From: Streptomyces sp. NBS 14/10 | Lineage (GTDB): Bacteria > Actinomycetota > Actinomycetes > Streptomycetales > Streptomycetaceae | Direction: 5' to 3' | NCBI RefSeq assembly: GCF_002224125.1 | Contig: NZ_NCSM01000054.1 | Location: 26,866-90,865, forward strand | Length of the DNA: 64,000 nt | Part shown: positions 2,631-42,151 of the stretch, piece after piece | Layout: every line of letters starts with the position of its first letter | Numbering within the stretch: the first letter of the stretch is position 1 | Made by a program: the position numbers and the translations under genes | The notes under the pieces: generated by a model | Databases searched by the model: none | The model's input: only the letters and a program-made list of their open reading frames with translations | What the model was told of the DNA's origin: nothing

Positions 2631-2684
2631 AAATCAACCCGTGGGGGAGGAATCACTTCCGGGGATGGTTTGTTAGCCTTGCTG

Positions 2685-2830
2685 ATGGCACCGGCTCGAT
2701 CCAAGCCCCCGGGCCCAACCTTCGTCGCTTCGAGCGACCACTTGCCGCGAGGCGAGCATGGCGGGTCGGTGCCACCTAAGACTTTCAAGAGGTCCGCGTC
2801 GGCTGTTCAGGACGCGGGCCTCTTTGTCGT
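2685..2830 (+). ncRNA. Candidate structured small RNA or attenuating leader upstream of malic enzyme
   Basis: A TAGCCT -10-like hexamer (2674-2679) would start a transcript near 2685. The 5' end then forms a closing stem, TGGCACCG (2686-2693) with CGGTGCCA (2767-2774), enclosing a GTCGCT/AGCGAC hairpin (2724-2738) and CTTGCC-GCGA-GGCGAG (2741-2756) with a GNRA tetraloop. A 14-bp terminator-like hairpin follows at 2787-2824. A multibranched domain followed by a terminator is the arrangement of a riboswitch or attenuator, or of a free small RNA. I recall a small RNA reported at the orthologous S. coelicolor locus but cannot verify it. An overlapping reading frame beginning at ATG 2685 (68 codons) is a weaker alternative. 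Confidence 0.55.
2787..2824 (+). terminator. Intrinsic terminator-like hairpin before malic enzyme
   Basis: 14-bp stem: 2787-2800 pairs with 2811-2824 with a single G-U wobble, 10-base loop, followed by a T-rich run (TTTGTCGTCTT). It sits 165 bases before the malic enzyme start codon, so it would end the RNA described at 2685 or attenuate the gene. Confidence 0.7.
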
Positions 2831-2988: not shown

Positions 2989-4419
2989 ATGGCAACGGCG
3001 CCCAGCGTCTCGTACTCGATGACGGTCCGGCTGGAGGTTCCCGCGAGCGGCACCGCGGTCAGCCAGCTCACCACGGCCGTGGAGTCCTCCGGCGGCTCGG
3101 TCACCGGCCTCGACGTGACCGCTTCCGGCCACGAGAAGCTGCGGATCGACGTCACCATCGCCGCGACGTCCACCGCGCACGCCGACGAGATCGTCGAGAA
3201 GCTGCGCGGTATCGAGGGCGTCTCGCTCGGCAAGGTCTCCGACCGTACGTTCCTGATGCACCTCGGCGGCAAGATCGAGATGTCGTCGAAGCACCCGATC
3301 CGCAACCGTGACGACCTGTCCATGGTCTACACCCCGGGCGTCGCCCGGGTCTGCCAGGCCATCGCCGAGAACCCCGAGGACGCCCGCCGGCTGACCATCA
3401 AACGCAACAGCGTCGCGGTGGTCACCGACGGCTCCGCGGTCCTGGGCCTGGGCAATATCGGCCCCAAGGCCGCGCTGCCCGTCATGGAGGGCAAGGCGGC
3501 CCTCTTCAAGCGCTTCGCGGGCATCGACGCCTGGCCGCTCTGCCTGGACACCCAGGACACCGACGCCATCGTCGAGATCGTCAAGGCCATCGCCCCCGGC
3601 TTCGCGGGCATCAACCTGGAGGACATCTCCGCCCCCCGCTGCTTCGAGATCGAGGCGCGGCTGCGCGAGGCCCTGGACATCCCGGTCTTCCACGACGACC
3701 AGCACGGCACCGCCATCGTGGTGCTCGCCGCCCTGACCAACGCGCTGCGCGTGGTCAACAAGAAGATCGGCGATGTGCGGGTGGTCATGTCCGGCGCGGG
3801 CGCGGCCGGCACCGCCATCCTCAAGCTGCTGATCGCCGCGGGGGTGCGGCACGCGGTGGTCGCGGACATCCACGGCGTGGTGCACGCCGGGCGTGACGAC
3901 CTGGCCGGCGGGAACGGCAACTCCGACATGACCGCGCTGCGCTGGATCGCCGACAACACCAACCCCGAGGGCGTCACCGGCACCCTCAAGGAGGCCGTAC
4001 GCGGCGCCGACGTCTTCATCGGCGTCTCCGCCCCGAACGTGCTGTCCGGCGACGACGTGGCCGCCATGGCCGACGGCGCGATCGTCTTCGCACTGGCCAA
4101 CCCCGACCCCGAGGTCGACCCGGCGATCGCCCGCCAGACCGCCGCCGTGGTCGCCACCGGCCGCTCCGACTTCCCGAACCAGATCAACAACGTGCTGGTC
4201 TTCCCGGGTGTCTTCCGCGGCCTGCTGGACGCGCAGTCGCGTACTGTGAACGACGACATGATGCTGGCCGCGGCCCGGGCGCTCGCGGATGTCGTCCACG
4301 ACGACGAGCTGAACGCCAACTACATCATTCCGAGCGTCTTCAACGACAAGGTCGCGGGCGCGGTGGCCGGCGCGGTACGGGTCGCCGCCAAGGCTGTGAC
4401 CGGTACCACGGCGGTCTAG
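2989..4419 (+). CDS. NAD-dependent malic enzyme with N-terminal ACT domain
   Basis: 476 residues. Catalyses oxidative decarboxylation of L-malate to pyruvate, linking the TCA cycle to pyruvate and acetyl-CoA supply. An ACT-like regulatory domain fills about residues 8-85; the catalytic part follows with MVYTPGVA (catalytic Tyr region), NIGP, the metal-binding stretch NLEDI...FHDDQHGTA, and a Rossmann GAGAAGTA nucleotide site near residue 265. The ATG is preceded by AGAGGAAG. This two-domain form resembles the NAD-specific Streptomyces malic enzyme; cofactor preference is inferred from that resemblance. The 451 bases upstream hold repeats, a structured RNA candidate and a terminator-like hairpin, so leader-mediated control is possible. 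Confidence 0.93.
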   Translation: MATAPSVSYSMTVRLEVPASGTAVSQLTTAVESSGGSVTGLDVTASGHEKLRIDVTIAATSTAHADEIVEKLRGIEGVSLGKVSDRTFLMHLGGKIEMSSKHPIRNRDDLSMVYTPGVARVCQAIAENPEDARRLTIKRNSVAVVTDGSAVLGLGNIGPKAALPVMEGKAALFKRFAGIDAWPLCLDTQDTDAIVEIVKAIAPGFAGINLEDISAPRCFEIEARLREALDIPVFHDDQHGTAIVVLAALTNALRVVNKKIGDVRVVMSGAGAAGTAILKLLIAAGVRHAVVADIHGVVHAGRDDLAGGNGNSDMTALRWIADNTNPEGVTGTLKEAVRGADVFIGVSAPNVLSGDDVAAMADGAIVFALANPDPEVDPAIARQTAAVVATGRSDFPNQINNVLVFPGVFRGLLDAQSRTVNDDMMLAAARALADVVHDDELNANYIIPSVFNDKVAGAVAGAVRVAAKAVTGTTAV

Positions 4420-31938: not shown

Positions 31939-32094
31939 CGGCGGTGAGTCCATGTGCGTTGTAGGTCGCGGTAGAGCGGGGTGGATGGTGACGCAGCTCA
32001 CAGCTGTGCGGGAATGCCCTGCCGGGATTTATTTGTTCGGACAGGCAATGGCGCTGCACCGCGCGGCGCCCCTCCGTGACCAAGGAATGTGATC

Positions 32095-33165
32095 ATGGCG
32101 ACGGCATTCGATCCGTACCACCTGGGCGGCAAGCCCCTGGCCAACCGCATCGTGATGGCCCCGATGACCCGCAGCCGTGCGTACGGCCCCGGGGCGACCC
32201 CGACGGACCTGATGGCGACCTACTACGCGCAGCGGGCAGGCGCCGGGCTGATCGTCACCGAGGGCACCCAGCCCTCGGTGGTCGGGCAGGGCTACCCCGA
32301 CACCCCGGGCTTGCACTCCACGGAGCAGGTCGCGGCCTGGCGCAAGGTGACCGACGCCGTGCACGACGAGGGCGGGGTGATCTTCGCGCAGCTGATGCAC
32401 ACCGGCCGTATCGGCCACCCCAGCCTGCTGCCGGACGACCAACTGCCGGTCGGCCCCTCCGCGGTGGCGCCGAAGGGGCAGGTGTTCACCCACGAGGGCC
32501 CCAAGGACTTCGTCACCCCCAAGGAACTGACCGAGGCCGAGATCGCCCGGACCGTCGACGAATTCGCCACCGCGGCACGCAACGCGGTGGCCGCCGGGTT
32601 CGACGGCGTGGAGATCCACGGCGCCAACGGCTACCTGGTCCACCAGTTCCTCGCCCCCAACGCCAACCGGCGCACCGACGGCTGGGGCGGCTCGGTCGAC
32701 GGCCGTATCCGCTTCGCCGTCGAGGTGGCGACCGCGGTGGCCCAGGCCATCGGCGGCGAGAAGGTGGGCTTCCGCATCTCGCCCGGCAACCCGTACAACG
32801 ACATCGCCGAGGACGACCTCCAGGAGACCTACGGCGCCCTGGTGGCGCGGCTGGCCCCGCTGGGCCTCGCCTATCTGCACCAGCTGGAGGCCCCGGGCGT
32901 ACGTGACCTGGTCCTCCGCCTGCGCAAGGAGTGGCCCGGCACCTTCATCCTCAACCCGTTCACCGGCACCGACCCGACCGGCCCGGAAGAGCTGGGTCTG
33001 GTGGAGGACGGCACGGCGGACCTGATCGCCTACGGCGCGCTGTACCTGGCCAACCCCGACCTCCCGGCCCGCCTCGCCGCCGGCGGCCCGTTCAACACCC
33101 CCGACCCCACCACCTCCTTCGGTGGCGACCACCGCGGCTACACCGACTACCCCACCCTCGGCTGA
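32095..33165 (+). CDS. Old yellow enzyme family alkene reductase
   Basis: 356 residues, FMN-dependent NADPH reductase of activated alkenes (cytoplasmic). Seen: the FMN-binding MAPMTRSRA near residue 20, the substrate-binding motif HTGR, GFDGVEIHGANGYLVHQFL with the active-site His-Gly-Ala-Asn, and the C-terminal FMN phosphate site LIAYGALYLANPDLP. AAGGA lies 8 bases before ATG 32095. Paired divergently with a MarR regulator. Confidence 0.92.
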   Translation: MATAFDPYHLGGKPLANRIVMAPMTRSRAYGPGATPTDLMATYYAQRAGAGLIVTEGTQPSVVGQGYPDTPGLHSTEQVAAWRKVTDAVHDEGGVIFAQLMHTGRIGHPSLLPDDQLPVGPSAVAPKGQVFTHEGPKDFVTPKELTEAEIARTVDEFATAARNAVAAGFDGVEIHGANGYLVHQFLAPNANRRTDGWGGSVDGRIRFAVEVATAVAQAIGGEKVGFRISPGNPYNDIAEDDLQETYGALVARLAPLGLAYLHQLEAPGVRDLVLRLRKEWPGTFILNPFTGTDPTGPEELGLVEDGTADLIAYGALYLANPDLPARLAAGGPFNTPDPTTSFGGDHRGYTDYPTLG

Positions 33166-42071: not shown

Positions 42072-42079
42072 GTTCATGG

Positions 42080-42151
42080 AGGCCGTGGCGGGAATCGAAC
42101 CCACGTAACTCGCTTTGCAGGCGAGCCCCTCAACCACTCGGGCACACGGCC
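42080..42151 (-). tRNA. tRNA-Cys (anticodon GCA)
   Basis: Read on the minus strand, a seven-bp acceptor stem GGCCGTG/CACGGCC, D-arm, anticodon stem CTCGC/GCGAG with loop CTGCAAA (anticodon GCA), and T-arm GTGGG-TTCGATT-CCCGC form a cloverleaf. The discriminator base is T, as expected for tRNA-Cys, and CCA is encoded next (42077-42079). The downstream protein gene begins within a few bases of the tRNA end. Confidence 0.93.

Follow-up and report, generated by a model that had tools for sequence, protein, structure and literature searches.

Architecture of the RNA gene and its promoter

The analysed stretch of DNA, hereafter called the window, comprises 64,000 nt of Streptomyces sp. NBS 14/10 (contig NZ_NCSM01000054.1 of assembly GCF_002224125.1, positions 26,866-90,865 of the forward strand). 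Between a gene for a protein resembling the RNA polymerase recycling motors HelD and HelR and a malic enzyme gene, we found a structured RNA element (2686-2824) that was divided into two components: a core of approximately 90 nt, with a closing stem (P1), a hairpin with a C-rich loop (P2), a third helix (P3) and a GNRA-capped hairpin (P4), and a terminator hairpin. Together with its promoter, the stretch 2649-2824 reads as a whole small RNA gene (Table 1). Degenerate tandem repeats with periods of 12 and 35 (unit like GGGACTGAGGCA) occupy positions 2530-2631, covering the end of the HelD-like gene and the sequence beyond it, before the RNA. Additionally, the malic enzyme leader contains an inverted-repeat-like stretch (GGTTACC...GGTAGGTG, 2869-2894), similar forms of which were observed in relatives and which may be an operator of the malic enzyme gene's own promoter.

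Table 1. Features of the RNA gene and of its two neighbours, in window coordinates.
Feature	Position	Strand	Basis
HelD/HelR-like RNA polymerase recycling motor gene, neighbour, from a putative start codon	60-2537	+	matches below NCBIfam cut-offs
GGAAT, -35 element of a SigR/SigH-type promoter	2649-2653	+	motif scan; family conservation
GTTAGCCT, GTT (SigR-type -10) overlapping TAGCCT (HrdB-type -10)	2672-2679	+	conservation of GTTA in the family
Likely transcription start	2685 (+/- a few nt)	+	inferred from promoter spacing
5' arm of the closing stem P1 (3' arm at 2762-2774)	2686-2698	+	fold; compensatory changes
CCA pairing with TGG (2759-2761) inside P1	2701-2703	+	fold; invariant in 60 family sequences, hence no covariation support
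P2, weak hairpin with C-rich loop (GCCCCCGGGC)	2705-2714	+	fold; family alignment
CCAACCTTC, conserved and unpaired, a candidate site for target binding	2715-2723	+	unpaired probability; role inferred
P3 hairpin	2724-2738	+	compensatory U-A/G-C and G-C/C-G changes
P4 hairpin, GNRA tetraloop GCGA at 2747-2750	2741-2756	+	mostly invariant, hence weak covariation support
P1 closing stem, 3' arm	2762-2774	+	fold; family alignment
14-bp terminator-like hairpin ending the RNA, stem 2787-2800/2811-2824	2787-2824	+	fold
Neighbouring malic enzyme gene; no conserved target in cis	2989-4419	+	malic enzyme models, below NCBIfam cut-offs

The predicted fold of positions 2680-2840 was unusually stable, with a z-score of -3.53 and none of 200 shuffled sequences equally stable. 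The corresponding values were -2.83 (1 of 200) for the core alone (2685-2776) and -4.74 (0 of 200) for the terminator stretch (2778-2832), and P1 and the terminator hairpin formed separate helices. An earlier note on this DNA had described such a fold with a separate 14-bp terminator-like hairpin, and both proved to be real, although some details differed. In particular, the closing stem does begin at 2686, but it comprises 13 bp rather than 8, with the additional CCA/UGG pairing inside it; and the inner hairpin with the GCGA tetraloop was found as P4, while the number of inner hairpins was three (P2, P3 and P4) rather than two. The tetraloop is GCGA in the window and GAGA or GTGA in other copies. 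A simple terminator scan of the window did not return the 14-bp hairpin because its loop of 10 nt exceeds the limit of that scan.

The interval 2649-2674 agrees with the SigR consensus, GGAAT-N18-19-GTT (PMC9205884; PMC2375139), to which the sigma-H consensus of C. glutamicum, GGAAt with GTT, is close (PMC10012870); the spacing between the two window elements is exactly 18 nt. The GTT overlaps the hexamer TAGCCT (2674-2679). This hexamer, from which the earlier note had derived its promoter, is indeed present, whereas the GGAAT-N18-GTT motif around it had been overlooked. The window promoter matches both the SigR motif (GGAAT-N18-GTT) and a housekeeping-type extended -10 (TGT-TAGCCT); a strict sigma-70 scan of the window returned no promoter for the RNA element. 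We found the SigR-type motif twice in the 64-kb window against 0.85 occurrences expected; because the motif by itself is not rare by chance in a sequence of this length, its weight rests on conservation. The second occurrence (GGAAT-N19-GTT, 32011-32037, + strand) lies about 50 nt before a flavin-oxidoreductase-like gene (32089-33165), the family of which was recognised by eye, and is a plausible SigR target site.

Conservation in the host family and independence from malic enzyme

The element was present in 149 of 150 family genomes and in 16 of 17 genera. The first search had already found it in every one of 25 genomes of the same genus, one of which is that of the window itself; the sole family genome without it (G049) was also negative with the covariance models. 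Named carriers belonged to Streptomyces, Kitasatospora, Embleya and Actinacidiphila. Because an exact 24-base pattern served to select the named loci, that stretch is necessarily invariant in them, and it was nearly invariant also in the loci found by BLAST. One locus (L026), the match of which from the first search lay outside the core, was left out of the family alignments; some family loci represent the same genome counted twice, and all counts given here are of related sequences, not of independent events.

Upon alignment of 60 diverse family sequences, we observed compensatory changes in P1 and P3 (A-U to G-C, U-A to G-C and G-C to C-G), while P2 was invariant and P4 nearly so. The CCAACCTTC segment showed a mean unpaired probability of 0.70-0.99 per base in these 60 sequences, and the C-rich loop of P2 and the CCAAC segment were conserved and mostly unpaired in family sequences. 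The hairpin just 3' of P1 varied in sequence between species and was usually present. Among the 120 of 181 unique family sequences that were folded (the other 61 were not), the 60 nt just 3' of P1 gave a mean z-score of -6.2, and 96% of them fell below -2, compared with 8% of 120 control stretches.

A frame of 68 codons, starting with an ATG at 2685, is open in the window and raised the question of a small protein. This reading was rejected as exceedingly improbable: an ATG, GTG or TTG was found at that place in only 118 of 192 family copies, the length of the frame varied (the commonest, 30 codons, was seen in 29 of the 118), and single-base insertions and deletions occurred inside the core while the base pairs were kept.

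Upstream of the core, 176 unique family sequences were compared, with repeats and loci with fewer than 50 nt upstream left out. Of these, 175 carried GTTA close to the -10 position and 129 carried GGAAT followed by GTT, at a spacing of 18 in 58 and of 19 in 71. The GGAAT was missing in six named Kitasatospora loci (one name is bracketed in its record) and in the named Embleya locus; copies of the Kitasatospora type carried TTG-like -35 stretches in its place.

One of the readings offered in the earlier note was a riboswitch or attenuator. Such an RNA would be a cis-acting 5' leader of malic enzyme, with the terminator hairpin serving as the expression platform. As evident from 137 family loci, the RNA often does lie on the same strand as malic enzyme, 128-1337 nt upstream of it, and an aptamer-like junction followed by a terminator-like hairpin is what such a switch would look like. 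However, among the 185 family loci that could be assessed (194 minus 9 dropped for want of an assessable malic enzyme gene), the RNA was inverted and faced away from malic enzyme in 48, and in 36 of these 48 the HelD gene was located within reach on the opposite flank of the RNA, convergent with it. Because an RNA that faces away cannot be a 5' leader, malic enzyme control is not a conserved role of the element. The different neighbours outside the family and the separate folding of P1 and the terminator also speak against a cis switch, which we regard as very improbable. In the window copy, the RNA has its own terminator-like hairpin ahead of malic enzyme.

Distribution across the class and a second architecture with a long P3

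For searches beyond the family, two covariance models were used: R1, built from family sequences, and R2, built from 81 class-wide sequences. R1 matched 213 of 394 class genomes and 66 of 137 genera. Forty of the 213 genomes belong to the window's genus, and each of them gave a single match, which speaks against R1 being a loose model. The distribution was patchy, with 181 of the 394 genomes lacking an R1 match and some of these carrying the long class described below instead. In a phylum-wide sample of 396 genomes, R2 matched 32, all but one of them in the class Actinomycetes; the sole match outside the class (G840) had an E-value of 0.005. The 364 genomes without an R2 match include class members, at least five of genus g24 among those listed.

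In the alignment of the 81 class-wide sequences, 93.5% of the cells were paired and both sides had changed in 12 of 17 pairs. The covariation score of 0.381 was reached by none of 500 shuffles, and pairing fell to 34-44% when the partners were slid. The compensatory stem changes on which the earlier note had staked its structure are thus present among relatives, and they went beyond the controls in the short class and in the long class alike. The invariant columns of this alignment comprised CCCC-GG and the cores of P3 and P4; the pairing of P2 was absent from the class-wide consensus fold. Across the class, the CCCC stretch was half paired (0.26-0.70 unpaired).

We examined 90 distant loci, a non-random selection made among the listed matches so as to sample across families; L279, with an R1 E-value of 0.013, was left out. 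The sequence GGAA[CT]-N17-20-GTT preceded 47 of the 90 loci, 40 of them at a spacing of 18, whereas it occurred in 1 of 3808 control windows taken at these loci, and shuffling predicted 0.2 of 90. The distance from the GTT to the core was 4-11 nt in most of the motif-bearing loci and 17-24 nt in 10. The motif is absent from the remaining 43 distant loci, as from the six named Kitasatospora loci and the named Embleya locus, so that control by SigR is not universal. Two genomes (G490 and G373) each contain two copies, one with the SigR-type motif and one without. Tandem short-class copies, 90 nt apart and each with its own SigR-type motif, were observed at L248:3788-3879 and L248:3970-4061. Four loci of family f21 (L267, L268, L270 and L273), which have no SigR motif, shared a hairpin-like stretch (GCGACAGC...CTCGC) just before P1. 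The downstream hairpin was weaker in the distant loci, where 42% of 89 stretches fell below a z-score of -2, compared with 6% of 88 controls.

Outside the family, the neighbours of the RNA varied. The commonest was an uncharacterised protein of about 200 residues, several members of which contain the motif LPGALWRLY; it was encoded near 34 of the 90 distant loci (L233, L239, L240, L242, L244 and 29 others) and gave no Pfam match in the two members scanned and no NCBIfam match in the one scanned. At this frequency it is not universal, and it was rejected as a general partner. General cis control of a downstream phosphate-transport gene was likewise rejected, as the corresponding protein cluster, which we take from reading the sequences by eye to be DUF47/Pit, was near just 11 of the 90 loci.

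R2 also matched copies of 113-118 nt with a longer P3, which were found in family genomes, G277 and G025. Short-P3 and long-P3 architectures share the P1-closed junction, the CCCCGG motif and the GNRA-capped P4. A third model, R3, was built from the long-P3 copies. It found matches in 67 of 197 genomes of the class and in 46 of 61 of the genus, in both sets partly through short-class copies. One Streptomyces genome (G020) gave seven R3 matches, all of 115-118 nt, and two genomes of family f19 without an R1 match (G203 and G223) had R3 matches; tandem long-class copies were observed at three loci of this family (L366, L372 and L376). The window's genome had no R3 match at E <= 1e-4. The long-class covariation score of 0.284 was reached by none of 500 shuffles, and the 11 pairs with both sides changed were reached by 1 of 500, while the number of further pair types was reached by 69 of 500. 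Immediately downstream of the element, 86% of 76 long-class loci had a stable stretch (z-score below -2), compared with 12% of 76 controls. The SigR-type motif preceded 70 of 78 long-class loci, 69 of them at a spacing of 18, compared with 15 of 2641 control windows, tandem copies being counted among the controls. R3 had itself been built from about 20 of these 78 loci, and the model does not cover the promoter.

These promoter data bear on whether the gene could instead belong to the housekeeping factor HrdB, with GGAAT-N18-GTT being a chance match or the target of a different ECF sigma factor. The TAGCCT hexamer with its extended -10 and the TTG-like -35 stretches of the Kitasatospora-type copies agree with this alternative, and a ChIP-seq study of HrdB assigned 75 of 105 S. 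coelicolor small RNAs to this factor (PMC6344877), possibly including the present one. However, the frequency and fixed spacing of the motif were far above controls in two sets (the 90 distant and the 78 long-class loci), the motif is conserved in a third, the family, a set without such a control, and in both G490 and G373 it precedes one of the two copies but not the other. We therefore consider a purely HrdB-type gene unlikely.

Relation to known RNAs and proposed function

In the Rfam search that the earlier note had proposed, no family of Rfam 15 matched the window element at the gathering score. In a permissive search, only Thr_leader appeared (E = 1.6), a sub-threshold match that was taken as noise. 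Scans with cmscan, which covered 18 of the first 20 distant loci, returned nothing but tRNAs there, and no Rfam family on the element for four long-class loci and L323. The sole gathering match in the window was a tRNA-Cys (GCA) at 42077-42151 on the - strand.

The S. coelicolor small RNA scr2952 (Vockenhuber et al. 2011), the expression of which was confirmed, is reported to be conserved in more than half of the tested Streptomyces and to be included in Rfam (PMC8388888). Small RNAs of this series are named after adjacent genes: scr5239, one of just two noncoding RNAs of Streptomyces for which, according to a 2015 paper, a target had been identified, lies upstream of SCO5239 (PMC4365011), and scr0792 lies between SCO0791 and SCO0792 (PMC11077062). 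By this rule, scr2952 is expected between SCO2951 (malic enzyme) and SCO2952 (HelD), which is the place of the element. The S. coelicolor copy is probably scr2952, and since the expected place fits the element, the transcript is probably known already, although PMC8388888 places scr2952 in Rfam and the window element matches no Rfam model. RF02829, which had been guessed to be scr2952, is Scr4115, and its match over the cut-off lies elsewhere in the genome. In the literature searched, consisting of the main texts of mainly open-access papers, we found no function for scr2952 and nothing on the RNA beyond the mention of scr2952, nor did we meet the class-wide family, its sigma-R promoter or the second class.

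Our preferred reading, to which we assign a probability of roughly 0.7 on sequence evidence, is that the element is an independent small RNA gene of about 140 nt, belonging to a class-wide family of stress-sigma RNAs that act in trans. An independent, trans-encoded small RNA is supported because the gene has its own promoter motif, its own terminator hairpin, compensatory changes in its stems and no fixed downstream gene; its location is intergenic. The 140-nt small RNA acting in trans, which the earlier note had offered as the other possibility, is in agreement with these observations. Transcription would start at about 2685 and end at the terminator hairpin, and the RNA would be induced by thiol/oxidative or heat stress. 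It would then act in trans, most likely by base pairing of its C-rich P2 loop and CCA(A)C segment to mRNAs at their G-rich translation starts; we prefer this mechanism because, within the family, both the P2 loop and CCAAC are conserved and for the most part unpaired. We know of no Hfq in these bacteria.

The main rival to base pairing is protein binding, in which the RNA would bind or sequester RNA polymerase, the ribosome or a regulator and the invariant loops and the GNRA cap would be contacts. Invariant blocks in loops and short helices, the compact junction and the several copies per genome in some lineages are consistent with such a role. However, the analysis yielded no protein partner, the only recurrent neighbour protein is near just 34 of the 90 distant loci, and the main text of an RNA polymerase RIP-seq study names scr3559 and scr0792 for S. 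coelicolor and contains no '2952' (PMC11077062). We regard protein binding as a tenable but somewhat less than probable role.

Returning to the small RNA that pairs with mRNAs, we judge the chances to be about even that the disulfide-stress (SigR/SigH) regulon of actinomycetes has its RNA arm here, in a hitherto unrecognised class-wide family with two architectures, sometimes several copies per genome, sometimes a stress promoter before one copy but not before another, and conserved C-rich loops that reprogram translation in bacteria not known to possess Hfq. If true, the actinomycetes would have a class-wide stress small RNA, unmatched by Rfam where scanned and tied to SigR/SigH by its promoters, and annotators could mark many RNA genes that are now left blank. 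To our knowledge, no class-wide stress small RNA is known in actinomycetes.

Among known systems, 6S RNA, Ms1 and 6C RNA are structured small RNAs like the element; the latter two are found in actinobacteria, and the loops of 6C, too, are C-rich (PMC8388888). They differ from the element in that no Rfam model matches it, a difference that for Ms1 presupposes a model in Rfam. The tmRNA gene ssrA is a SigR target, and together with other members of the SigR regulon it illustrates that non-coding RNA genes can belong to this regulon; tmRNA is unrelated to the element, the SigR control of which we infer from its promoter. The CcsR or cuckoo RNAs of alphaproteobacteria form a group of related small RNAs under stress sigma factors, and their C-rich loops are conserved. 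As far as is known, they differ from the present family in fold, sequence, sigma factor and phylum, and no membership is claimed, but they work in the way proposed here for the RNA family.
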